From Lachnospiraceae bacterium (lineage in GTDB: Bacteria > Bacillota > Clostridia > Lachnospirales > Lachnospiraceae): a DNA stretch of 46,181 nucleotides. The notes below the pieces were generated by a model. The model made no database searches, was not told the DNA's origin, and saw nothing but the letters and a program-made list of their open reading frames with translations. The translations under genes were made by a program, and so were the position numbers. Every line of letters begins with the position of its first letter. Within the stretch, counting starts at the first letter, position 1. The stretch is from the NCBI GenBank assembly GCA_017455525.1, contig JAFTAP010000085.1, forward strand, positions 1 through 46,181, read 5' to 3'. Of the stretch, positions 7,179 to 18,826 are shown piece after piece.

Positions 7179-8414
7179 TCATTCATACGACCCAACGATA
7201 TCAAGTATCTCGTGGGCGTAGTTCGGGTATTTCGTGACAAGGTCCTGCACTTCCTTCTTGGCGTTCTCCCTGTTCTCAGTATTGTAGGATATGCGCTTCC
7301 TTAAGCCCTGACGTCTTGCTACAAGCTCGTGGCGAAGCTCCACCATCTCGCGCTTGTCAACGACCGCCTCCGCCTGATGAAGCCAGAGCATAGGATAATT
7401 CACATTCGCATTTATAAGCTCCTTGCGGTATCTCTCCTCCGCTGCGTCAAGGTCAGTGCTCATGCGACGCAAAAGTGCCCGCTCCTCCCGCTCCTCCTCA
7501 TAGAGCTTCCAGTTATAGGCCAGCTCATCAGAGGAATTTATATGGTACTTCTCATACTCATAAGTAATAAGGTTCTGTATGTTCACGTACTTTATCTTTA
7601 CCGTGTTCTGCTTCGCTACTATCTGATTGATCTGATTCCTCATGCGCCGCTCGACGCTTCTGGCATTGACGAAGGACGAGAAAGAAATGGCAAGAGTTAT
7701 AGAGCCTATCGCCGCTGCCATTATGAAGCCCGGTATCACTGTCATGTCAAACATCATCTTCAAGAGCAGGAGTATGAACATCACAAAGCCCATAGCGAAA
7801 ACCGTAATTACAGCGATATTCCGGCAGCTTATCATCTTCGTATGCGCATCGCTTCTCTCGAACTGCCTTGATACTTTCTCGCCCTCAAGCTTCCTTAGGT
7901 CATCCCTCACTATCTCCTTGAAGTCCTCATGCCCTCTTAAGTCATTCAAAGCCTTAGGCATGTCGGATGCGATGCTTGCCATCTGGTTATACTTTGCCTC
8001 GCTTATCTTGCCAAGCTTTCCGGTATGCTTCTCGCTCTTCTTCATAAGCTGCAGCACCGTCTCGGCAGCAGTTATCAGATGGCTCCCCGATTCCTCGGGA
8101 ATCTGGTCTATGACCTCGCAGTCCTTCAGATAATCGGTCACATACCTGTACTCCTTAGATGCGGCATCTATCTCATTCGTACACTCCTCCATAAGGTCGC
8201 AGAGATTCTTCACATACCTCTGCCTTAAAGTGCGCGAGGACATATCGACCTCAGAGCGGTCTATCTCCTCTACCTCAGGGATGTCCTCCTTCATGTACCC
8301 GCTGTCGAAGTAGTCGTTGTCCTCGTCATATTCGTACTCGTCGTCATCGTAATCATCATCGATGCGTCCGGCGAGCAGATCTTTTATTCTCTGAATAAGT
8401 CCGGTCTTTGCCAT
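7179..8414 (-). CDS. membrane-anchored coiled-coil protein of unknown function, last gene of the four-gene cassette
   Basis: A 411-residue protein I do not recognise by family. Residues about 19-40 are an acidic Asp/Glu/Tyr tract. Residues 60-195 are predicted mostly helical and charged. Two adjacent hydrophobic segments (about 198-219 and 226-248) form a membrane hairpin. The C-terminal 160 residues look like long coiled coils rich in Glu, Arg and Lys. There is no signal peptide, so both soluble parts should face the cytoplasm. The start ATG 8414 has AGGGATAG just upstream and follows the TPR-like gene's stop by 2 bases, so the genes are tightly coupled. It may be the membrane anchor for its three soluble partners; that is inference from context only. 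Confidence 0.8.
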   Translation of the reverse strand: MAKTGLIQRIKDLLAGRIDDDYDDDEYEYDEDNDYFDSGYMKEDIPEVEEIDRSEVDMSSRTLRQRYVKNLCDLMEECTNEIDAASKEYRYVTDYLKDCEVIDQIPEESGSHLITAAETVLQLMKKSEKHTGKLGKISEAKYNQMASIASDMPKALNDLRGHEDFKEIVRDDLRKLEGEKVSRQFERSDAHTKMISCRNIAVITVFAMGFVMFILLLLKMMFDMTVIPGFIMAAAIGSITLAISFSSFVNARSVERRMRNQINQIVAKQNTVKIKYVNIQNLITYEYEKYHINSSDELAYNWKLYEEEREERALLRRMSTDLDAAEERYRKELINANVNYPMLWLHQAEAVVDKREMVELRHELVARRQGLRKRISYNTENRENAKKEVQDLVTKYPNYAHEILDIVGSYE

Positions 8415-8416
8415 AA

Positions 8417-9190
8417 CTATCCCTGTATCCTTCTGTATTCCGCTTTAAGCCTGCTCGATAATCTCTCCGTGGCAAGCCTTCCTCCATACTTATTAGAGCC
8501 GTTAAGGGCAATCTTTAATTCCGCTATCTCGGGCGGTTCCTTGGTCATCTCCTCAACGGCTGCAGAAAGGCTCTCGTCGGGATGCTCCTTTAATAATAGA
8601 TCCACGTACTCAACCCTTGACATCGAAAGCTTCCTGCAGAAGAAAGTCCTTCTCTCATCCCCCGATATGCTGAAAGCCTCCGCCGCTTTGTCAAACATGA
8701 AATAAAGGGCGTAAAGCCTCCCAAGCTTATCCATGAGCTCCTTATAAATAAGGCCGTCCTTTTCTGATTCCTGATCCATTATCTCCCTTGCGTGCTCATA
8801 CAAGAGAATAGCAGATCTGTATTTCTTATTCTCCGACAGAAAATCGCCCCTGCTTATGAGCCTCACGAATTCCTTCTCATCGTTTCCCTCGCTTATGCTC
8901 CTGCATATATCATTCGCAGCGTCCTCATTCATGTAATGCCTGTACGAAAGCAGGACGCGCACATATTCAGAAAGCTCAGGCCTCGCCCCTGCAAGATCGT
9001 CTGCAAGATCAGGCAGGGCGAAGCATTCCTTAATAAATGATAGCAGACTGTCATCCATAAGGAAATCCCCCAGATCGTAAAGCTTCTCACGCACTACATA
9101 ACAAAGTTCCTCAAAGGAATGCACCGATACGGAAAGCTCAGGTATGTGATATGCACTTTTTGAGTAAACTCCTATCGCCTCGTATAACAT
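8417..9190 (-). CDS. TPR-like helical protein of unknown function
   Basis: A 257-residue, apparently cytosolic all-helical protein. The middle region (about 105-185) has helix pairs with TPR character, for example ENKKYRSAILLYEHAREIM and LYFMFDKAAEAFSISGD, where small and aromatic residues recur at TPR spacing. No catalytic motif, signal peptide or membrane segment is visible. The start ATG 9190 has AAGGCAGG upstream and follows the Hsp70-like gene by 6 bases. TPR-like proteins commonly act as adaptors or co-chaperones, which would suit the neighbouring Hsp70-fold protein, but this is inference. Confidence 0.75.
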   Translation of the reverse strand: MLYEAIGVYSKSAYHIPELSVSVHSFEELCYVVREKLYDLGDFLMDDSLLSFIKECFALPDLADDLAGARPELSEYVRVLLSYRHYMNEDAANDICRSISEGNDEKEFVRLISRGDFLSENKKYRSAILLYEHAREIMDQESEKDGLIYKELMDKLGRLYALYFMFDKAAEAFSISGDERRTFFCRKLSMSRVEYVDLLLKEHPDESLSAAVEEMTKEPPEIAELKIALNGSNKYGGRLATERLSSRLKAEYRRIQG

Positions 9191-9196
9191 CCTGCC

Positions 9197-10423
9197 TTAT
9201 ATAAATACCTCTGTCTCCACCGTATCACCTGATGACTTATATATATCCCCGAAGCCCAAATCATAAGCCTTACAGGAGACGCATGAATTGTCCTTCATCG
9301 CCACCTCAAGCCTTACTCTCGTGCATCTTGCCGGTCTCTTGGGAAAGCCGTCGCATCTTAACACGCTGTATCTTACATCCTTAGTGAAGAAGGATTCAAG
9401 CCTTATCCTGATCTCCCTGTCATCTCCCAGGTAGAACTCGCTCGCACCCTTTGCCTCGTACCAGTTGATCCCTGCCTCAAGCAAGGGAATATACGTCTCC
9501 TGTCCGTCCCTTATCATATGAAGCCCGATATTAGACACAAGCTTCTCATCATCGAAGAACCTGCAGATATCAAGCATCGGATTGCCGTCCCTGTCATCAA
9601 GTGCCGCATAGCAGGCACCCTTGGTATATAGATTCCTTCCTTGGAACACCCTTCGTCTTCTCTCACAGAGATAGGTAACAGAGGACTTAAGCCAGCCGCC
9701 CTCAAAGCCCTCGCCCGAAAGATACACGGCAGACACTATCTCCGAGTCAAGCACCGAGCGGGCAATCTCAAGGAAGCTTAGGTCATCCTTCAATGTCATG
9801 TCAAAATCCCTCTCCTCGACCATGCAAAGATGCGGCCTCGTGTCTACCCTCGTATAAAGCAGCATGCTTCGCACGATGGCACCGTCATAATCAAAGAGCG
9901 CTATCTTATTCTTCGTAAGGGAGGCGTCCTGATTCATAGCATAATAAAAGAAGCACTCCGGATAGCCTGTTATCCTGTATTTTATATCCTCGTCCTTAAG
10001 GAATCCCGCTGCCTCCTCCACGGTCTTCACGTACTCCTCCGATACATCGGGCATGGCTATCACCGCACGCTCGATAAGCTCCACAGGCGATAGAACGGAT
10101 GACATATACATAGTACGCTTCATAAACCCCGACAGCAGCGTGACATAGTCATATCTCTCGCCGTTCCTGTCTATATACAGTCCTTTAACCGCCCTGCTAA
10201 GAAGGTTAGTTATAAGCTTCCCGTCATCACCCGATGCCCTTACTGCATCCTCGCCGTAGGATACATCTCCGCTATCGCTGATGTACGCTGCGACAGGGAT
10301 CACGTATCTCTCCGAGCCCGCAAGCACGGGAACGGAGCGCACTTCTTCGTTACCCTCATTTTCTATGCTTATGCTGACCTGACAGGACAGATCGTTCAAG
10401 TCGTAGCCTAAGACTCTGCCCAT
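9197..10423 (-). CDS. divergent Hsp70/actin-fold protein (resembles DUF5716)
   Basis: A 408-residue protein whose order of motifs follows DnaK. MGRVLGYDLNDLSCQVSI stands for the phosphate-1 loop (DnaK GIDLGTT), YGEDAVR for the VGxxAKR turn, and RAVIAMPDVSEEYVKTVEEA for the helix before phosphate 2. IALFDYDGAIVRSMLL stands for phosphate 2 (DxGGGT), SAVYLSGEGFEGGWLK for the adenosine loop, and a beta-rich tail for the substrate-binding region. Nucleotide-contact glycines and threonines are largely replaced, so ATPase activity is doubtful. ATG 10423 is chosen over 10468 because GAGGGA lies 8 bases upstream and homologous-looking sequence begins there; it overlaps the previous gene by 16 bases. 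The DUF5716 name is from memory. Confidence 0.75.
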   Translation of the reverse strand: MGRVLGYDLNDLSCQVSISIENEGNEEVRSVPVLAGSERYVIPVAAYISDSGDVSYGEDAVRASGDDGKLITNLLSRAVKGLYIDRNGERYDYVTLLSGFMKRTMYMSSVLSPVELIERAVIAMPDVSEEYVKTVEEAAGFLKDEDIKYRITGYPECFFYYAMNQDASLTKNKIALFDYDGAIVRSMLLYTRVDTRPHLCMVEERDFDMTLKDDLSFLEIARSVLDSEIVSAVYLSGEGFEGGWLKSSVTYLCERRRRVFQGRNLYTKGACYAALDDRDGNPMLDICRFFDDEKLVSNIGLHMIRDGQETYIPLLEAGINWYEAKGASEFYLGDDREIRIRLESFFTKDVRYSVLRCDGFPKRPARCTRVRLEVAMKDNSCVSCKAYDLGFGDIYKSSGDTVETEVFI

Positions 10424-13400
10424 ATCACATCCCTCACTATCCTGTCCTTTATGATATAGTCCTCGCAAAGCTCTGTGAAGCTGTCAGTATCCCCCATGTT
10501 AAGGCTTGTGATGGCGTCCTGCAGTATATCATACCTCTTATCACCGTTCATAAGCCTTTCTTCGGATCTTTCTATATCACTTGCCGCAGCACCCCTGTCA
10601 GACACGGTGATATAGTATTGCATGGTCTCTCCGGGGAAGATAGTCCCCCTCGCCTGATACATTCCGGGATAAAGCTCCTTCATCTCCTCGGTCTTATAAT
10701 CAACGGCCGCATCCTCATTATCCGTCTCAAGGCAGTAATTGAGCGTTACGGTAAGCCCTCTCTCCGCTCTGTGCTCAATAAAGACACCCTCAGAAAATAA
10801 AGCAAGCGCAGGTATCAGATCCTTATACGAGACGAAGAAATCAAAGACTATGTCCCTCTCCGCAAGATCTCTTATATAAGGATAGAGTATCTTGTCAGAC
10901 CTCATATCCCTCCTGCCTTCGTAGAACCGTATAAGACAAAGCGCCTCTACGTCAGTTATCTTCTCATCTATGGCAAAATCAAGAAGCCCCATGAAAAGCC
11001 TGTCGTCAAGCACGGTGTCCTTCAGGAAATTATCCTCCGCAGCCTTTAAGAAATACTCGCCGACAACCCTCTTTGAAGCATCGCTCTTCAGATAATCAAA
11101 GAAGATCTCATCCCTCTCCCCTATGTACGCTCCGGTTGCAAGCATCTGCTCTATTATCCTGCCCTCTATGACCGATGCGTCAGCGTCGAAATCCTTGCAG
11201 GCTCTCCATATATCCTTAAGCTCCCTTGTGGTTCCCTCATAATGCCTTGATAGGAAATCAAGGATGCTCTCATTGTATTTATTTCCTCTGAAGGTAGCGG
11301 ATGCAACCTCTGTAAGCACGGGATCTATGCCTTCAGGTCTTATTCCCTCGCCCTGCACGTCGGATATCGCGCTTACTACCTCAGGACTATCGGATATGAT
11401 GCCGCCCTCTTCTATCAGCTTAGTTGCTATCCGCATCAGTATCCTGGCATCCATGCCATAGGAGCCGTATTCCTTTATTACTCTGTACGCCTCCTCGTCG
11501 TCATCCCTCATGGAGCAGAACCTTATGTATTCATTGCGCTCCTCCATGGTGAGCCCTTCCGCATCGATCTTAAGCAGCAGATCAGAAAGCTCCGTCTGCA
11601 TGTCATTATCGAAGTAAAACCTTAGAAGCTCAGTTAACAGTCCTTCCTTAAAGCCCGGATCGAAAAGATCCGAATCAATGATCGCCCTGACATACCGGAC
11701 ATTCTTCCCGTCTATCGAGATATAGCTCCTCCCCTTCTCGGATAAGGCTACCCAAAGTCCCGGTTCATCCGCTTCGGGATTGCTTATATTATCTATAAGC
11801 TCCCCTATCCTTAAAAGCTTTATGTCCTCGCTTGCGACATATTTGCTGCCGTATCTCCTGCCCTCATAGTCCTCGAAAAAGAGCTCGTAGTCATTATCAT
11901 AGATACTAAGGTAAGCCCTTCCGCCTTTAACCGCGGCGCTCCTTTCTTCCCCGAAGGCATCCTCCGTCACCGTGACAGTCCTGATCCTCGGATCATTTAT
12001 TATGATAAGTCTTAAGAAGCCATTCTTTATCAGAGCCTTATCTAAAGCGTAGGTATCAGTAATGCTGTCATCCCCGCCCGCATCCCTGAAATACCTTATA
12101 TAATCAACGATTATCGCAAGGTTCTCATCCATGTGACCCGCAAGCACCTCTGACGCGGCGAAGCGTCCCATATCTTCCATGCTCTGCGTAAGGAGCACTC
12201 CCGCCTCTTCCTCGTTCACTATCATATTGGCATAGACATAGGAACGGAACTCCGGCGGAAGGTCGTTGCGGAAGCTGTAATACATAAGCACGTTCTTCGG
12301 CAGAAGCTTCGTGCCGCTGCGCTTCATCGTATAGAGATAATAATCATAAAGGTTCGTAACTCCCAGATCCCTCTCTACCGCCTTCTCGAAATAAGTGAAA
12401 TACCTGCTGTCCGTTATCTCGTTCCTTATAAGATATGAGCAGATCGCAGTGAGCATCTCGTCATCTTTGAACTCGCTGTAATAAGCCCCCATTATCTTTA
12501 CCAGCCTTGCGTCATATCCCCTCATCCTCTGTGAGAGATTAGACACCTGATCCGCTATCTCCTTCTTCATAAGACCGTGCTTCACGGCAAAGCCTAAGAC
12601 ATTTATCTCAAATTCCGACAGTCTTCTTATTAGCGTCGGATCATGAGACAGCACGCTGTATGCCTCAAGGTACATAAGAGGACTTCTCATGCCCCGCTCA
12701 GTCTGCTCCTCTATAAGTGATCGCTCCCGCTCAGGAGACATCTTTATCGTCTCGTCAAGATATATCAGTATCCACAGTATACGCCATGAATCATCAGACC
12801 TGTTGTATAGCTCCCATACCTGCTTCACAGCCTTTGCTATGCCCCTATCGTCCTGATCGCACATAGCCCTTAAGTAAATGTAGTAAGCCGTAAGGTCATT
12901 AGAGAAATCCCTGTTATCCATCTCCCGCTCTACGGCTCCTAAGACTATGTCAGCCTCGCTGTACCTTTTTGCCGCAAGAAGGAGCTGCGCCTGCATAAGC
13001 CTGCTCTCAGGATCGTTGCGGTCGCTCGTCAGCATCCGCTCTACGAGCTTATTAGAGCGCATTATCCACTCATCGCCTGAGATATTCCCAATACGGAAGT
13101 TTATGAACTCATTCATAAGCTTTGTGACGCTTGCCTTCCTCTGCCTTACTTTCTCCCTTGCAGAACGATCGGAACCGCTCATATCAACGAATACGGGTAT
13201 GACAACCTCGGAATGCAATGACTTAAGCTCTATGCGGGCGAAGTTATGCCCCGCATGAAGCCTTTCATGTAGTATAGTAAAGGTTACCTCCGCAAAGTTT
13301 CCCTCGAAGTCATCTAAGTAATACTCATCCTTATGAAGCCTGACGAAATCATCCGTGCAGGATAAGGTAAAGCCCGGAAAGCCCCATCCGCTCTTTCTTA

Positions 13401-14013
13401 CGGTTATAGTGTATTCCTCATCCTCCTGAATACCTTTAGCCATCACGCTTCCCTCTGCGAAGCTTAGAAGCACGGGATTCTTCTTTCCGGCCTCTACGAG
13501 AAATTCCTCGACGCCCTCATATTTCCTGTTCTTACCCCCGCAGGCAGAAAAAGCCCTGTATTTAAAGAATGTCTCCCTGTCGCCACCCTTGAATATCTTC
13601 CTCGCCTTATCCGTATAAAAGAGCCTCGTCGCCTCCTCGAAGTCTTCCTTTGCAAGATTGGTGAAATGAAAGAGGTTCCTGACAGGTCCTTTGCTTGATG
13701 TCATCTCCTCCCTTATGACGCTTAAGGTAACGGGTATCTTATCCTCGCCCTGATCCGATACTACGGATATAAATCCCTTGAATACAGTTCCCGAATCAAA
13801 GCCGTGTGAATCTATCTCATAATCTATGGCTATGCCGCCATCGGGAAGGCTCCCGTTATAATCAGTTAAGGAAAGACGTATCCGCCTGTGGCTTGGTCTA
13901 AGCATGAAGGCAATGCGTGAGCAGTCAGGAGCATCAAGGATAAAAGACCCATTGACCCTTCCCTTTGCCTCGCAGCTCTCCTCTATTCTCTTTACGCTAA
14001 GCGCAAGGCTCAT
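10408..14013 (-). CDS. 1201-residue beta-sandwich plus helical-repeat protein (resembles DUF5717)
   Basis: This very large protein has no signal peptide or membrane segment. Residues 1 to about 290 look like two beta-sandwich domains. About 300-1050 is a helical repeat solenoid rich in acidic and aromatic residues. The last about 150 residues return to beta structure, then helices. No enzymatic motif is visible. The start is set at ATG 14013, not 14025, because the bases between them (GGAGGAAGAG) form the ribosome binding site, and ATG 14013 overlaps the trkH stop as ATGA. It then overlaps the Hsp70-like gene by 16 bases. The architecture suits a scaffold or client-binding partner of the Hsp70-like protein. 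The DUF5717 name is a recollection. Confidence 0.78.
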   Translation of the reverse strand: MSLALSVKRIEESCEAKGRVNGSFILDAPDCSRIAFMLRPSHRRIRLSLTDYNGSLPDGGIAIDYEIDSHGFDSGTVFKGFISVVSDQGEDKIPVTLSVIREEMTSSKGPVRNLFHFTNLAKEDFEEATRLFYTDKARKIFKGGDRETFFKYRAFSACGGKNRKYEGVEEFLVEAGKKNPVLLSFAEGSVMAKGIQEDEEYTITVRKSGWGFPGFTLSCTDDFVRLHKDEYYLDDFEGNFAEVTFTILHERLHAGHNFARIELKSLHSEVVIPVFVDMSGSDRSAREKVRQRKASVTKLMNEFINFRIGNISGDEWIMRSNKLVERMLTSDRNDPESRLMQAQLLLAAKRYSEADIVLGAVEREMDNRDFSNDLTAYYIYLRAMCDQDDRGIAKAVKQVWELYNRSDDSWRILWILIYLDETIKMSPERERSLIEEQTERGMRSPLMYLEAYSVLSHDPTLIRRLSEFEINVLGFAVKHGLMKKEIADQVSNLSQRMRGYDARLVKIMGAYYSEFKDDEMLTAICSYLIRNEITDSRYFTYFEKAVERDLGVTNLYDYYLYTMKRSGTKLLPKNVLMYYSFRNDLPPEFRSYVYANMIVNEEEAGVLLTQSMEDMGRFAASEVLAGHMDENLAIIVDYIRYFRDAGGDDSITDTYALDKALIKNGFLRLIIINDPRIRTVTVTEDAFGEERSAAVKGGRAYLSIYDNDYELFFEDYEGRRYGSKYVASEDIKLLRIGELIDNISNPEADEPGLWVALSEKGRSYISIDGKNVRYVRAIIDSDLFDPGFKEGLLTELLRFYFDNDMQTELSDLLLKIDAEGLTMEERNEYIRFCSMRDDDEEAYRVIKEYGSYGMDARILMRIATKLIEEGGIISDSPEVVSAISDVQGEGIRPEGIDPVLTEVASATFRGNKYNESILDFLSRHYEGTTRELKDIWRACKDFDADASVIEGRIIEQMLATGAYIGERDEIFFDYLKSDASKRVVGEYFLKAAEDNFLKDTVLDDRLFMGLLDFAIDEKITDVEALCLIRFYEGRRDMRSDKILYPYIRDLAERDIVFDFFVSYKDLIPALALFSEGVFIEHRAERGLTVTLNYCLETDNEDAAVDYKTEEMKELYPGMYQARGTIFPGETMQYYITVSDRGAAASDIERSEERLMNGDKRYDILQDAITSLNMGDTDSFTELCEDYIIKDRIVRDVIWAES

Positions 14014-15452
14014 CTCTTCCTCCATGTGCCTGGTGCAAAAAGGAGAAGCATCGGATAAAGCTCAAGTCTTCCCGCAAGCATATCAAATGTAAGCACGTAT
14101 TTTGAGACTATCGAGAAGCCGTCAAAATTCCCCGCAGGACCTACGACAGAAAGTCCCGGTCCGATGTTATTTAATGTCGCCATGACCGCCGTGAAATTAG
14201 TCTCGAAATCAAAGCCGTCAAGACTTATTATAAGCATGGAAACTATGAGCACCAGCACGTAGGATACAAGATATACCTTCACTCCGCTAACCGTCTCGTC
14301 CTTAACCTTCCGACCGTCCATGTAAATATTCTTTACAAGACGGTGGTGTATGAAGTGCCTCAGCTCCCTCACGTAAGACTTTGCCATTATGATAAGCCTT
14401 GAAATCTTGAACCCGCCGCCTGTAGAGCCTGCGCAGGCTCCGATGAACATCAGGCATACAAGTATGGTCTTCGATAAGGCAGGCCACTTATCAAAGTCCG
14501 CAGTCGAATATCCGGTAGTAGTTATTATCGAGCTTACCTGGAAGAAAGACTTGATGAAGCCGTCCTCTATGCTGTCAAACATATTTCTCGCATTCCACAT
14601 GATAAGAGCGGTTGACGCTGCGATTATCACAAGATATGTCTTTACCTCGTCCATATTAATCGCTTCCTTTATGCTCCGTCTTATGATGATGAAGAAATAA
14701 AAGTTGAAGTTTATCCCGAAGAGCACCATGAAGATAGATATTATCAGCTGCTGGATATAAGTATAGCCCGCTATCGAGGTGTTATATATCCCGAAGCCTC
14801 CCGTGCCCGCCGTACCGAAAGTAAGTGTTATCGAATCGAATAAAGGCATGCCCGAAATAAGCAATATAACCATCTGCAGTACGGTAATGACGAAATAGAT
14901 CATATACAGTATCTTTGCTGAATCACCAAGCTTCGGCACGAGCTTTCCCACATCGGGTCCCGGGGATTCCGAACGCATCAGGTGCATATTCTGCGCACCT
15001 GTCATGGGAAGTATGGCGAGCATGAAGACGAAAACTCCCATGCCTCCTATCCAATGCGTGAAGCTCCTCCAGAAAAGCGAGCAATGCGAAAGCCTCTCCA
15101 CGTCATGCAATATCGATGAGCCGGTCGTAGTAAAGCCCGATACGGTTTCAAACAAGGCATCGGTAAAATCAGGTATCTCTCCTGTGATCACAAAAGGAAG
15201 GCAGCCTACGACAGACATTATTATCCATCCGACGGCAACCGCTATGAAGCCTTCCTTTGCGTAGTAATTCTGCTTCTTAACCTTCCTTATGCTGATAAGC
15301 CTTCCGATAACGGCGCAGACTGCCGCCATCCCGAAATAGGTAATCCCCTGCCTCTCGCCGTAGAATAAGGACACGACCGCAGGGGCTATGAAAAGAGCTC
15401 CCTCAAGCTCTATAAGCTTTCCTAATATGAATAATATGCTGGCGAAGTTCAC
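14010..15452 (-). CDS. trkH: Trk/Ktr potassium uptake membrane subunit
   Basis: A 480-residue integral membrane protein of the TrkH/KtrB family, which forms the K+ pathway. Four selectivity-filter loops are visible in order: SGFTTTGSS, TFGTAGTGGFG, TTTGYSTADF and GACAGSTGGGFK. The C-terminus (ELYPMLLLFAPGTWRKR) is typical. The start codon is GTG at 15452, with GGAGGAAGGAAAG directly upstream. It follows trkA, its cytosolic gating partner, by 72 bases. The first gene of the four-gene cassette begins inside its stop codon (ATGA), implying translational coupling. Confidence 0.96.
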   Translation of the reverse strand: MNFASILFILGKLIELEGALFIAPAVVSLFYGERQGITYFGMAAVCAVIGRLISIRKVKKQNYYAKEGFIAVAVGWIIMSVVGCLPFVITGEIPDFTDALFETVSGFTTTGSSILHDVERLSHCSLFWRSFTHWIGGMGVFVFMLAILPMTGAQNMHLMRSESPGPDVGKLVPKLGDSAKILYMIYFVITVLQMVILLISGMPLFDSITLTFGTAGTGGFGIYNTSIAGYTYIQQLIISIFMVLFGINFNFYFFIIIRRSIKEAINMDEVKTYLVIIAASTALIMWNARNMFDSIEDGFIKSFFQVSSIITTTGYSTADFDKWPALSKTILVCLMFIGACAGSTGGGFKISRLIIMAKSYVRELRHFIHHRLVKNIYMDGRKVKDETVSGVKVYLVSYVLVLIVSMLIISLDGFDFETNFTAVMATLNNIGPGLSVVGPAGNFDGFSIVSKYVLTFDMLAGRLELYPMLLLFAPGTWRKR

Positions 15453-15524: not shown

Positions 15525-16892
15525 TTATTTCTTCAATATATCCGTGATGTCATTAAGTCCCTGATGTGTCGTGACTACGACCACCCTGTCACCGACCCTT
15601 ATCTCATTCTTTCCTCTGGGGTACATGATATTGTTCCGTCTCCTTATACATGCCACGATCAGGTTATCCTTCAGGTTGAGATCCAGCAACGGAACGTCCG
15701 TCACCTCCGATTCTTCCCTTATGATAAATTCCAGAGCCTCCGCCTTTCCGTCAAGGATATTGACCAAAGTCTCAACCTGACTTCTGCCTTTTGAATTCTG
15801 TAAGGCGCGGACATTTGCATTTACAATCTCCGCGACTATGCTCCTCGTATGAACTATCGTTCCTATATCTATCTCCTCGACTATGGCGTCGAACATCATG
15901 CGGTTGACCTTCGTTATTATCTTCGCCTTCTCGTTATGCTTCTTGGCATAAAGCGATAATAAGATATTCTCCTCGTCTATATTCGTAAGTGCGACTATTG
16001 ACTGGACACGGTCCAAGCCCTCTTCCATTATGACAGTCTCTTCCGTGCCGTCTCCGTTTATTATCGTGGCATACTCTAAAGCCTCGTCAAGCTCTATGCA
16101 GCGGGACTTCTTCTTCTCTATGATCTTGACCTCTATACCTGTGTCAAGAAGCTCCTTAGCAAGATAATAGGCAAGCTTGCTCCCGCCTATTATCATGGTG
16201 TCCTTCACGGCATGAGAGGGTATGTTTATCGTCTTGAAAAATCTCGCCGCATTTAAGGGTGAGGCAAGGAATGAAACCCTGTCTCCCTCCATGAGCACCG
16301 TTGAGCCGTTAGCTATCAGTACATCGTCGCCCCGCTCCACTGCGCATATCTGTATAGAATTCCTTATCTCCTGTGAAAGATCCATTATCTTCTGTCCCGA
16401 TAATGGTGAAGCCTTATCTATGCGGAATTTCAAGAGCTCAACTCTTCCGCCTGAAAGCGTCGCTATATTGATCGCGGACGGCACCCTTAGGATACGGGCT
16501 ATCTCCCTTGCCGCAGCTCTCTCAGGATTTATCACCATAGTGATGCCGAGCTCCTCCCTGAAAAAACCTACCTCGTCAAGATATATGGGATTTCTCACTC
16601 TCACTATGGTCTTAATGTCTTTATTAAGCTTCCTCGCTATGAGACAGCAGAGCATGTTTATCTCATCAGATACGGTAGTAACGATGAGAAGCTCCGCTTC
16701 CTGTACTCCCGCTTCCTTCTGAACCTTTAGCGAAGCGCCGTTGCCCTCCACTCCTATGATGTCAGAGGCGTTCGCCGTCTCGTTTACGACGTCTCTGTCC
16801 TCGTCTATTACTGTTACTTCATGACCTTCCTTTGCAAGTGTCATGGCAAGCGCCGAGCCGACCTTGCCGCAGCCTACGATAATGATCTTCAT
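15525..16892 (-). CDS. trkA: Trk potassium system NAD-binding regulatory subunit
   Basis: A 455-residue peripheral protein with two RCK units. The first begins with IIIVGCGKVGSALA (Rossmann GxGxxG, residues 4-17) and is followed by a TrkA-C domain near 140-215. The second begins near 235 with TMIIGGSKLAYYLAKEL, where the glycine motif is relaxed, and ends with a second TrkA-C domain. It gates TrkH in response to nucleotides. Its ATG overlaps the stop of the upstream ABC exporter gene by 4 bases (ATGA), an unusual pairing that ties exporter and potassium subunit translation together. Confidence 0.95.
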   Translation of the reverse strand: MKIIIVGCGKVGSALAMTLAKEGHEVTVIDEDRDVVNETANASDIIGVEGNGASLKVQKEAGVQEAELLIVTTVSDEINMLCCLIARKLNKDIKTIVRVRNPIYLDEVGFFREELGITMVINPERAAAREIARILRVPSAINIATLSGGRVELLKFRIDKASPLSGQKIMDLSQEIRNSIQICAVERGDDVLIANGSTVLMEGDRVSFLASPLNAARFFKTINIPSHAVKDTMIIGGSKLAYYLAKELLDTGIEVKIIEKKKSRCIELDEALEYATIINGDGTEETVIMEEGLDRVQSIVALTNIDEENILLSLYAKKHNEKAKIITKVNRMMFDAIVEEIDIGTIVHTRSIVAEIVNANVRALQNSKGRSQVETLVNILDGKAEALEFIIREESEVTDVPLLDLNLKDNLIVACIRRRNNIMYPRGKNEIRVGDRVVVVTTHQGLNDITDILKK

Positions 16893-18826
16893 GCCGATAT
16901 CTCATTCCCCGTGTATAATTGATAATATTTTCCATGCGCCGCTATAAGCTCGTCATGGGTTCCCCGCTCAATGATCCTGCCCTGCTCTAATACCATTATA
17001 CAGTCAGAATTTTTGACCGTAGATAATCTATGCGCGATCACGAATGTCGTGCGCCCCTTCATAAGCCTGTCCATGCCGTCCTGCACTATCTTCTCCGTGC
17101 GGGTGTCTATGGAGCTTGTCGCCTCATCAAGTATCAGCACGGGCGGATCGGCTATGGCGGCCCTCGCTATCGCAAGGAGCTGTCTCTGTCCCATCGAGAG
17201 GTTAGCCCCGTCTCCTGTAAGCACCGTGTCATACCCCTGCGGAAGCCTCTTGATAAAAGCATGAGCGTTCGCAAGCCTCGCAGCACGCACGATCTCCGCA
17301 TCGGTAGCGTCAAGCTTGCCGAATCTGATATTTTCTCTTACCGTCCCCGTGAATAAATGCGTATCCTGTAATACCATTCCAAGCGAACGTCTTAAGTCCG
17401 CCTTTTTAATCTTATTCACGTTTATGCCGTCATACCTTATCTTGCCGTCCTGTATGTCATAGAAGCGGTTGATAAGATTAGTTATCGTAGTCTTTCCCGC
17501 GCCAGTGGAGCCGACAAAGGCTATCTTCTGCCCCGGCTTTGCGAAAAGCTCTATATCATGCAGCACCATCTTGTCATCGGTATAGCCGAAGTCAACCTCA
17601 TGCATCTCTATATCGCCCTTTAGCAGCGTGTAATCCGTCGTGCCGTCAGCCTTGTGATAATGCTCCCAAGCCCAGACCTTCGTATGCTCCTTTGTAGGAG
17701 TTATAGTGCCGTCCTCATTTATTACAGCGTTAGTGAGCGTCACATATCCGTCGTCAGTCTCAGGCTCGGAATCAATAAGCTCGAATATCCTCTCCGCCCC
17801 TGCAAGCGCCATAAGCACCGAGTTGAACTGCATCGATATCTGATTTATCGGCATATTGAAGCTCTTATTGAAGGTGAGAAAGCTTGCGAGCTTTCCTACC
17901 GTAAGGCTTCCCGTGCCGAAAAGCGCCATCGCCCCGCCGGCCGCTGCGCAGAGCACGTAGCTCACGTTTCCTAACTGCATGCTGACAGGACCTAAGATAT
18001 TGGCAAACTTATTCGCATTATATGCGGAATCAAAAAGCGCCTTATTCTTCACGTCAAAATCCCTTACCGCCTCGTCCTCATGGTTAAAGACCTTGACGAC
18101 CTTCTGTCCGGTCATCATCTCTTCTATGAAGCCATTAAGCTCACCAAGGGACTTCTGCTGACCTATGAAATTTGCTCCCGACCGCCTGCCTAATGCGCCC
18201 GCAGAAAAAAGCATAAGCATCACCATCACGACTGTGAGCAGGGTTAGCGGCATGCTTAGGACTATCATGCTTATAAATACGGACACTATCGTAATAAGGC
18301 TCTGGAAGAACTGCGGCATAGCCTGTGACAGCATCTGCCTCAGCGTGTCTATGTCGTTAGTGTAGATCGACATTATATCCCCATGAGGATGCGTGTCAAA
18401 ATACTTGATCGGCAGGGCTTCCATCTTAGAGAAAAGCTCTTTCCTTATCTCAAGCATCGTGCCCTGCGTCACATATATCATTATCCTCTGATTGATATAG
18501 GTGGACACCACGCCTATCGCATAAAAGATTGCGACTCTTGCTATCGCATGAAGCAAGGGCGAGAAATCGGTGCTGCCGCTCTTTAGCATCGGAGCAATAT
18601 AATCATCTATTAAGTTCCTTATGAAAAGAGTTCCCTGCACGGAAGCCAGCACGCCTATAAAAATGCAGGCTATGACTATAACGAGATGCACTGCATAGTG
18701 TCTCGTCATGTAACCCATGGTACGCGCAAAAAGCTTGCCGGGATTCTTAACCTTCACTCTTGGTCTCCCCGCCATACGCCTTCCGCCCCCCGGTCCTCTT
18801 ACTTCTCTCAGCTTTTCATCCGCCAT
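16889..18826 (-). CDS. heterodimeric ABC exporter, half with canonical ATP site
   Basis: A 645-residue half transporter: a basic N-terminal extension (1-35), six membrane segments (about 45-345) and an ATPase domain. Catalytic elements are intact: Walker A GSTGAGKT near 439, signature LSMGQRQ, Walker B VLILDEATSSID with the catalytic Glu, and switch His in AHRLST. About 50 extra residues (357-405) lie between the membrane and ATPase parts. The partner half is encoded upstream across a 109-base gap holding a dispersed repeat. Such pairs export drugs, lipids or peptides; the substrate cannot be told. The start ATG 18826 has only a weak GAG-type ribosome binding site. Confidence 0.93.
   Translation of the reverse strand: MADEKLREVRGPGGGRRMAGRPRVKVKNPGKLFARTMGYMTRHYAVHLVIVIACIFIGVLASVQGTLFIRNLIDDYIAPMLKSGSTDFSPLLHAIARVAIFYAIGVVSTYINQRIMIYVTQGTMLEIRKELFSKMEALPIKYFDTHPHGDIMSIYTNDIDTLRQMLSQAMPQFFQSLITIVSVFISMIVLSMPLTLLTVVMVMLMLFSAGALGRRSGANFIGQQKSLGELNGFIEEMMTGQKVVKVFNHEDEAVRDFDVKNKALFDSAYNANKFANILGPVSMQLGNVSYVLCAAAGGAMALFGTGSLTVGKLASFLTFNKSFNMPINQISMQFNSVLMALAGAERIFELIDSEPETDDGYVTLTNAVINEDGTITPTKEHTKVWAWEHYHKADGTTDYTLLKGDIEMHEVDFGYTDDKMVLHDIELFAKPGQKIAFVGSTGAGKTTITNLINRFYDIQDGKIRYDGINVNKIKKADLRRSLGMVLQDTHLFTGTVRENIRFGKLDATDAEIVRAARLANAHAFIKRLPQGYDTVLTGDGANLSMGQRQLLAIARAAIADPPVLILDEATSSIDTRTEKIVQDGMDRLMKGRTTFVIAHRLSTVKNSDCIMVLEQGRIIERGTHDELIAAHGKYYQLYTGNEISA

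Follow-up and report, generated by a model that had tools for sequence, protein, structure and literature searches.

GrpE rotates subdomain IIB of Hsp70 and thereby opens the cleft (PMC4753570). Ssz1, a non-canonical Hsp70 of the yeast ribosome-associated complex (RAC), does not hydrolyse ATP and has no lid; it belongs to a complex, and its SBD-beta is functional (PMC7083937). GAP1-N2 neighbourhoods encode HSP70, GrpE, sometimes a second HSP70 without the peptide-binding domain, and FNIII-TPR or FNIII-DnaJ proteins (Kaur et al. 2020, PMC7159879).

The locus described here lies in the window, the whole stretch of 46,181 nucleotides of Lachnospiraceae DNA that was analysed. Four genes run end to end on the minus strand at 7179-14013: A, of family DUF5717; B, of DUF5716_C; C, a TPR gene; and D, coding for a membrane hairpin and coiled coil. 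We consider it probable that this cassette is what remains of an older operon with several Hsp70s, namely its ATP-independent core, and that it now holds or hands over clients on a scaffold. A literature search found no account of the cassette, no work on DUF5717 and only unrelated work on DUF5716.

Layout and conservation of the cassette

Gene A, the putative giant scaffold (10408-14013, minus strand), encodes 1201 residues from the ATG at 14013; its reading frame extends to an ATG at 14025 (10408-14025). The later start is favoured by homologues (L007 begins MSLSFS). Gene B, the pseudo-Hsp70 (9197-10423, minus strand), encodes 408 residues from the ATG at 10423, with a longer reading frame from a TTG as the alternative (9197-10468, minus strand). 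The ATG is again favoured by homologues (L012 begins MGRVIGYDL), and the first residues of the B model were of low confidence, in line with the later start. Gene C, a putative TPR adaptor (8417-9190, minus strand), and gene D (7179-8414, minus strand) encode 257 and 411 residues. If the later starts are used, the A-B overlap is 16 bases, gaps of 6 and 2 bases separate B from C and C from D, and A overlaps trkH (14010-15452; Pfam TrkH, E 2.5e-60) by 4 bases. An earlier note on this DNA had described four tightly packed genes, with coordinates and a 16-base overlap that fit these ATG starts, and had correctly named the families DUF5716 and DUF5717 (PF18980 in B, PF18984 and PF18983 in A).

A was found in 148 of 150 sampled Lachnospiraceae genomes (147 of 149 genera); G320 and G373 were the two without DUF5717. 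Synteny was assayed at 40 loci chosen from the 148 genomes with A. Genes A, B and C lay side by side on the same strand at all 40: A and B were always adjacent, and B and C were adjacent at 38 and fused at the other two (L074 and L087). Gaps were of 30 bases or less for A-B at 34/40 loci and for B-C at 36/38. The togetherness of A, B and C is more than chance. The earlier note's reading would have been refuted had the genes rarely been neighbours in other genomes, and for A-B-C the opposite was found; D came next at 19 of the 40 loci.

Two hydrophobic stretches of D begin near residues 200 and 225, and the protein aligns with D from five loci of other families. Its profile gave 19 PDB matches at E<=1 (best 0.0094), with no clear relative among them. 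The acidic tail, hairpin and coiled coil noted earlier are present in the window, but among 27 aligned D proteins the long acidic N-terminal tail was limited to the window and its close relatives L009, L012 and L092. D is an optional part of the cassette. Because it was matched in only 64 of 150 genomes of the family, the membrane tethering that had been proposed is not supported as a general property.

The hint of a link to ion homeostasis through coupling to trkH is likewise unsupported, because trkH is a local neighbour: it lies upstream of A at 7/47 Lachnospiraceae loci, the window included, and at none of 20 loci fetched from other families. The trkH/A overlap occurs only in the window and L009 among the 47, and in L092, of the same genus, an aminotransferase gene stands between trkH and A.

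A is a DUF5717 member by Pfam score (PF18984, E 7.5e-224, 745.8 bits; PF18983, E 3.5e-63, 214 bits; cut-off 25). Its AlphaFold model (mean pLDDT 87.2) bore out the predicted beta-sandwich/helical-repeat architecture. Along the minus strand, the model places a first beta-sandwich (residues 1-110, 13675-14004) and a second one (residues 178-275, 13180-13473) ahead of an alpha-solenoid (residues 280-662, 12019-13167), of which profile positions 320-446 match GmaR chains (E 6.3e-6). A small beta barrel (residues 664-729, 11818-12015) separates this from a second, PPR/TPR-like alpha-solenoid (residues 733-1070, 10795-11808; match to designed PPR chains, E 1.8e-8), followed by a C-terminal sandwich (residues 1074-1145, 10570-10785) and a helix pair. 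At several loci of other families the N-terminal part (first beta-sandwich) is a separate gene, A1. Structure searching with A was uninformative, with TM-scores of at most 0.15 by query length among the 50 matches listed; these were large solenoid proteins (Ski complex, UNC-45, Ctr9/Paf1, NatA and ciliary proteins).

C alone matched TPR_12 at E 8.5e-5, under the Pfam cut-off. Its family profile matched TPR chains at E 2.5e-42, making it a TPR protein by profile, as the earlier note had suggested.

Gene B as an Hsp70 without catalytic residues

B matched PF18980 (DUF5716_C) at E 3.2e-81, with 273 bits against a curated cut-off of 34.7. The Pfam HSP70 model failed to reach the single B sequence, and phmmer against the PDB gave no match at E<=10. 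The profile of 44 family B proteins aligned by hhalign with a profile of DnaK, B1, B3 and B4 (probability 99.7, E 1.4e-25), colinear across NBD and SBD-beta. Against the PDB, the family-only profile matched 12 sequences at E<=1, every one named as Hsp70-type (best 2.9e-8, positions 5-135). The B model (pLDDT 93.8) matched DnaK in Foldseek at E 9.6e-22, and the 50 matches listed were Hsp70 or Hsp110 entries or complexes containing one. Two ciliary chains among them carry the name Hsp70A. TM-scores to Hsp70s were moderate, the best being 0.60 by query length among the matches listed. By profile and by model, B is an Hsp70.

These matches bear on the proposal that B is a structural subunit, of actin/Hsp70 fold, in a scaffold serving the envelope or cell division, with D as membrane tie and A spanning. 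The membrane hairpin and long helices of D are in keeping with this idea, which is near that of the earlier note. However, D was unmatched in 86/150 genomes, B retains an SBD-beta-like domain, and its listed structure matches are Hsp70s rather than actins or MreB; we regard this proposal as improbable.

The catalytic residues of Hsp70, which we take to be K70, E171 and T199 in E. coli numbering, are largely gone from the 44 family B proteins: Lys and Glu were kept in none and Thr in three, and the third glycine of the GGG phosphate loop was also absent from all. Nine catalytic or phosphate letters were all kept in B1 and B3 (all 35 proteins), as against 1-4 in B2 and 0-3 in family B. This agrees with the earlier note, which had read an Hsp70/actin fold and a changed nucleotide site from the sequence of B. 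B could still bind nucleotide, because the adenosine-motif glycine (43/44) and the second glycine (44/44) are kept.

Motif spacing and comparison with DnaK indicate that most of subdomain IIB is missing from B, at approximately 9785-9856 (minus strand). The phosphate-2 and adenosine motifs are 59-78 residues apart in the 44 family B proteins, compared with 143 residues for DnaK and 132-152 for B2, and DnaK residues 187-267 mostly have no counterpart, the limits of IIB within DnaK being those that we assume. An SBD-beta-like sandwich follows (about 9200-9556, minus strand, from alignments and model), with the conserved end D-x-G-F-G. In both alignments and model B terminates there, so that the SBD-alpha lid is absent. 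As a fold, seen in profile and model, B falls in the Hsp70 superfamily, with an actin-like NBD then SBD-beta, colinear with DnaK; by its sequence features it is outside the ATPase-chaperone class, lacking the catalytic set, most of IIB and the lid. The B model gave a TM-score of about 0.60 against 'stimulating state' Hsp70 chains. Assigning it to the Hsp70 ATP-state was dropped, as scores to ATP-bound (0.51-0.53) and ADP-type (0.45-0.52) structures overlap.

Such a protein might regulate the housekeeping DnaK in the manner of Hsp110 with Hsp70: the complex would bring DnaK to a site or a client and time its release. The genome of the window encodes a single canonical DnaK, next to a frame the size of GrpE; B resembles Hsp70 and lacks the catalytic residues; and the fold search also returned Hsp110 Sse1. 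C is a TPR protein, and the TPR adaptor class docks Hsp70/Hsp90 in eukaryotes. However, B lacks the long SBD-alpha and most of IIB, one crude pattern found no J-like motif at 67 loci, and there is no direct link between B and DnaK. We therefore consider such regulation unlikely, while giving it some weight.

A larger operon in other families and the proposed role

In other families of the order, a parent-type operon was found that is not visible from the window itself. It carries A, Hsp70 B1, X (a long protein with a GrpE domain), pseudo-Hsp70 B2, Hsp70 B3, Hsp70-VWA B4, C and D, with seven genes in fixed order at 12/20 loci; its Pfam domains are Hsp70, GrpE, VWA and TPR. Catalytic residues are kept in B1, B3 and B4. 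By sequence, three of its Hsp70s are thus catalytically complete, and X is of GrpE type. At the Lachnospiraceae loci that were read, A, B, C and often D are present, and B1, X, B3 and B4 are absent. In the tree, 18 Lachnospiraceae B proteins form a single clade (98/97) adjoining B2 of L101 (100/99), and by this phylogeny the window's B descends from B2. X was found at E 1.1e-33 or better in 69/174 genomes outside Lachnospiraceae and in 0/22 inside. The outside genomes are not uniform: 68 have both A and X and 101 have no A; in five, A is present and X absent, and in one the reverse holds. The short form of the cassette also occurs in one of them (G830, L107). A hint of clients was sought in 20 ORFs within or next to the parent operon (L102, L104, L106 and L112), with no common theme; 14 of these passed a Pfam threshold (among them NUDIX, GNAT, Mrr, HD, peptidases and an epimerase).

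The HSP70, GrpE, TPR and VWA domains of this operon, with the beta-sandwiches of A, recall themes of biological-conflict systems like the GAP1-N2 neighbourhoods described by Kaur et al. 2020 (PMC7159879). Parent B3 (E 1.9e-7) and B4 (E 1.4e-4) also match the PADLOC candidate PDC-M61B, in part of the Hsp70 region. On the other hand, a GTPase is absent among the ORFs run through Pfam (part of the neighbours), and when the four window proteins were run through PADLOC, C alone gave a match, weak and partial (0.0088). No plasmid match was found for B. A matched four 'phage' records; the two examined carry A-B-C-D and look like pieces of bacterial chromosome, because of frames close to a valyl-tRNA synthetase (L121) and an MgsA-type ATPase close by in both, and a mobile or phage origin was set aside. 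Defence systems are patchy, whereas A is near-universal in Lachnospiraceae. Thus a defence role has little support and appears very improbable.

On the reading favoured here, a reduced chaperone core, A, B and C would make up a single complex, to which synteny and the fusion at 2 of 40 loci point indirectly. In it, A would act as the scaffold, B as a locked, non-cycling Hsp70, and C as a TPR docking arm kept beside B; D, if encoded, would tether the complex to the membrane. The part that B largely lacks, IIB, is the one turned by GrpE for ADP release. By analogy with lid-less Ssz1, its SBD-beta may keep a weak peptide-binding surface. The complex would hold a client, or hand it to the housekeeping DnaK or another partner, with no ATP cycle of its own. 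The earlier note's chaperone-like or scaffold machine survives as a chaperone-derived cassette with a scaffold-like A, without the general membrane tether. More tentatively, and with less confidence, nearly all Lachnospiraceae may depend on this conserved complex, in which a dead Hsp70 without catalysis, lid or exchange lever is fixed in a giant scaffold, the motor having been shed and the core kept.

Two large families of unknown function, present in nearly every sampled Lachnospiraceae genus, would then become parts of an Hsp70-derived machine. Should the more tentative reading hold, the complex would be a new one that handles clients independently of ATP and is particular to a dominant gut family. 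The series from full operon to reduced core may show what a chaperone complex does after losing its ATPases, and the cassette predicts testable partners, offering gut commensal genetics a family-specific subject.

Comparison with known systems

Compared with canonical Hsp70 and GrpE, NBD and SBD-beta of B are colinear with DnaK, and the parent operon has three Hsp70s with the full catalytic set and a GrpE domain. B differs in having no catalytic Lys, Glu or Thr, no lid and little of IIB, and Lachnospiraceae differ in that the GrpE-type X was found in none of 22 genomes. The parent operon shares HSP70, GrpE and TPR with GAP1-N2 neighbourhoods, but no GTPase or effector was seen among the ORFs run through Pfam (part of the neighbours); moreover, it has four Hsp70-type paralogues, one of them dead, and the cassette is near-universal in one family. 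B and A belong by score to Pfam DUF5716_C and DUF5717, for which Pfam gives no function. Finally, Ssz1 binds ATP and has a J-protein as partner, whereas no J-like motif was seen here with the one crude pattern. Like Ssz1, B lacks the lid, and it is probably a member of a complex. Ssz1 may be taken as a comparison of how B could work, rather than of kinship.

Gene order of the cassette in Lachnospiraceae

The cassette genes of the window all lie on the reverse strand: D (7179-8414), a membrane hairpin/coiled-coil protein; C (8417-9190), a TPR adaptor; B (9197-10423; start set by homology, the ORF reaching 10468), a pseudo-Hsp70; and A (10408-14013; start also set by homology, the ORF reaching 14025), a giant scaffold. 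Beyond A, on the same strand, lies trkH (14010-15452), confirmed by Pfam. Pfam assigned A to DUF5717 and B to DUF5716_C, both with very strong scores. C was TPR-like yet under the cut-off, D gave no Pfam match over the cut-off, and none of the four proteins had an NCBIfam match over the cut-offs. By Pfam, the flanking genes are trkH, trkA, an ABC exporter, adenylosuccinate lyase and adenylosuccinate synthetase. The trkA and ABC exporter genes, upstream of trkH, occupy 15525-18826, and the run ABC-trkA-trkH recurs at L007, L008, L009, L012 and L092.

The DUF5717_N model PF18984 matched 4 of 299 genomes in a phylum sample, and PF18983 matched 10 of 243 in a class sample; all of these belong to Lachnospiraceae. 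Within the family, PF18984 was found in 148 of 150 genomes (149 genera); only G320 and G373, which are 93% and 98% complete, had no match. A profile of A (alignment A2) returned from the class sample the same ten genomes with strong scores. Six more matched weakly (E 2.3e-6 to 7.8e-4), over 91-154 positions within the solenoids, the frames being 300-408 aa long. Matches to the D profile, two of which were weak, came from 64 of the 150 family genomes.

Gene neighbourhoods (up to 20 kb around A) were compared in 40 of the 148 A-bearing genomes, a non-random draw of 20 of the 23 top-scoring genomes and 20 from across the lower scores, with long contigs predominating. A and B stood side by side on one strand at all 40 loci. 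B adjoined C at 38, and the two formed a single reading frame at the others (709 aa at L074, 684 aa at L087). Gaps of at most 30 bases separated A from B at 34/40 loci and B from C at 36/38. D directly followed C at 19 of the 40. Upstream trkH was present at 7 of 47 loci, counting the window, all close relatives, and at no locus but the window and L009 did it touch A; at L092, from the window's genus, an aminotransferase gene separates the two. An aminotransferase-type gene adjoined A at 15 of the 40 family loci (on the same strand in one), and a valyl-tRNA-synthetase-type gene came after the cassette at 10. Because A, B and C stay joined, D is optional, trkH is local and the outer neighbours vary, gene order establishes A-B-C as the conserved unit.

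Across 67 loci, a class I/II aminotransferase-type gene occurred at 25 (including L092:4895-6001), three of them parent loci as described below, and a valyl-tRNA-synthetase-type gene at 18. Two GenBank scaffolds from human faeces labelled 'Bacteriophage sp.' (L121, MT835486.1; L122, MT835988.1) bear A-B-C-D, and L121 also has frames closely resembling a valyl-tRNA synthetase. Both scaffolds appear to be pieces of bacterial chromosome misfiled under phage. Two more phage-labelled records, MT837190.1 and MT835719.1, match A.

A longer operon in other families of the order

PF18980 matched 89 of 196 genomes in an order sample: 22 belong to the family and 67 lie outside it. Of these 67, 55 had two or three matches each, often separated by 1-3 kb of the same contig; most of the frames were roughly 475-580 aa long. 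At 12 of 20 outside-family loci with PF18980 matches, the genes A, B1, X, B2, B3, B4 and C followed one another in full order on one strand; apart from L101 and the short-form L107 (both below), the rest were partial, ended by contig limits or broken up by other genes. D was found at five of the 20 (L099, L101, L108, L109 and L110). L101 has all eight genes, several of them short or spread over more than one frame. In several outside-family loci two genes, A1 (about 390 aa) and A2 (about 900 aa), stand in place of A.

At L109, Pfam identified B1, B3 and B4 as Hsp70 (2.2e-70, 4.7e-55 and 2.9e-90), B4 continuing into a VWA domain, X as carrying a C-terminal GrpE domain (5.4e-9) and C as TPR; B2 and D gave no match over the cut-off. 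The layout of B4 (L109:6500-8590) was the same at other parent loci. Of five B4 proteins inspected, four have DTTGS as the VWA metal motif and one has DTTSS; the usual DxSxS was missing from 12 of 12 checked. In X (L109:11650-13362), the GrpE domain ends a long protein, of 564-644 aa at most loci, versus about 110-255 aa for the GrpE frames met in the same searches.

Among 174 order genomes outside the family, the X profile matched 69 (E 1.1e-33 or better, some being contig-cut pieces), A was present in 73 (one weak), and both occurred together in 68. G692, G777, G825, G830 and G849 had A without X, and G787 had X without A. In the 22 family genomes the X profile returned GrpE-sized frames of 211-239 aa in 3 and nothing in 19. 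In the class sample it likewise matched GrpE-sized frames, at the C-terminal end of X; the exception was an 824-aa frame in G455, matching weakly elsewhere in X. G830, placed in another family (86% completeness, 5% contamination), carries a short Lachnospiraceae-type A-B-C (L107), which could be a genuine intermediate form or a contig of foreign origin.

B as a degenerate Hsp70

The alignment of a family B profile (44 proteins) with a DnaK/B1/B3/B4 profile (probability 99.7, E 1.4e-25) starts at the first phosphate motif and extends through the whole SBD-beta. B2 matched the same DnaK/B1/B3/B4 profile at 1.1e-59, and the family B profile matched that of B2 at 3.5e-57, each E-value coming from a single profile pair. 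Searched against the PDB, a family-only profile (37 proteins) returned 12 sequences with E<=1. Every one bears an Hsp70-type name, and the top match spans no more than positions 5-135; with 14 added rows (13 B2, one L107) the best match reached 2.7e-19 over positions 6-408. The Pfam HSP70 model did not reach B, and the window's B as a single sequence had no PDB match. The AlphaFold model of this protein (mean pLDDT 93.8, pTM 0.90) found a DnaK model in the PDB by Foldseek at 9.6e-22, and the 50 matches listed were Hsp70/Hsp110 entries or complexes including one (TM by query 0.44-0.60). Profiles and model together show B to be kin to Hsp70.

Nine catalytic or phosphate-loop letters were counted per protein. 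All nine were kept in B1 (16/16) and B3 (19/19), and each was kept in 14 of 15 B4, the fifteenth being a 494-aa piece from L101 that is gapped there. B2 retained 1-4 of them, family B 0-3; neither the catalytic Lys nor the catalytic Glu is present in any of the 44 family B proteins. These counts place the loss of catalytic residues already at the B2 stage. The spacing from the phosphate-2 to the adenosine motif is 143 residues in DnaK and 132-152 in B2, versus 59-78 in family B. Residues 187-267 of the window genome's DnaK, which make up most of subdomain IIB, mostly have no counterpart in B: family B lacks most of IIB. In the window's genome PF00012 matched only one DnaK (two pieces) and a 344-aa frame, taken for MreB.

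When 43 proteins (18 of the 44 family B members, 18 B2, 6 B3 and DnaK) were compared in a maximum-likelihood tree, family B formed a single clade (98/97) next to the B2 of L101 (100/99), which retains the IIB stretch; DnaK and B3 were separated from the rest (100/99).

Origin and possible working of the cassette

X, B1, B3 and B4 were found neither at the 40 family loci nor in the window. A review (PMC4753570) describes GrpE as opening the Hsp70 cleft by turning IIB; thus the absence of X and that of IIB fit each other. The cassette very probably arose by reduction of the parent operon.

The AlphaFold model of A (mean pLDDT 87.2, pTM 0.64) runs through a beta-sandwich, a small helical part, a beta-sandwich, a solenoid, a beta barrel, a solenoid, a beta-sandwich and a helix pair; among the matches listed, its closest structures were large solenoid proteins at low TM. 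The family profile of C is plainly TPR. From the parent families through to the window, D retains its hydrophobic hairpin together with long helices, but its long acidic tail is confined to the window and close relatives.

A, B and C probably form one complex. Tentatively, this complex might act as a holder: the SBD-beta of B would hold a client, C would dock via its TPR and D, where present, would tether the complex to the membrane. Taken as a whole, the description of the cassette as the ATP-independent core of a multi-Hsp70 machine appears somewhat favoured.

A full-text literature search found no mention of DUF5717; for DUF5716 it returned a single paper, whose title and opening abstract deal with mismatch repair and curcuma compounds. 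The search, which reached few subscription papers and no bioRxiv preprints, found no published account of the cassette. The closest published gene neighbourhood is that of the GAP1-N2 systems, with their HSP70-GrpE theme (PMC7159879); no GTPase turned up among the ORFs put through Pfam. The closest working analogue documented for B is Ssz1, which, according to PMC7083937, binds ATP without hydrolysing it, has no lid and remains an active chaperone.
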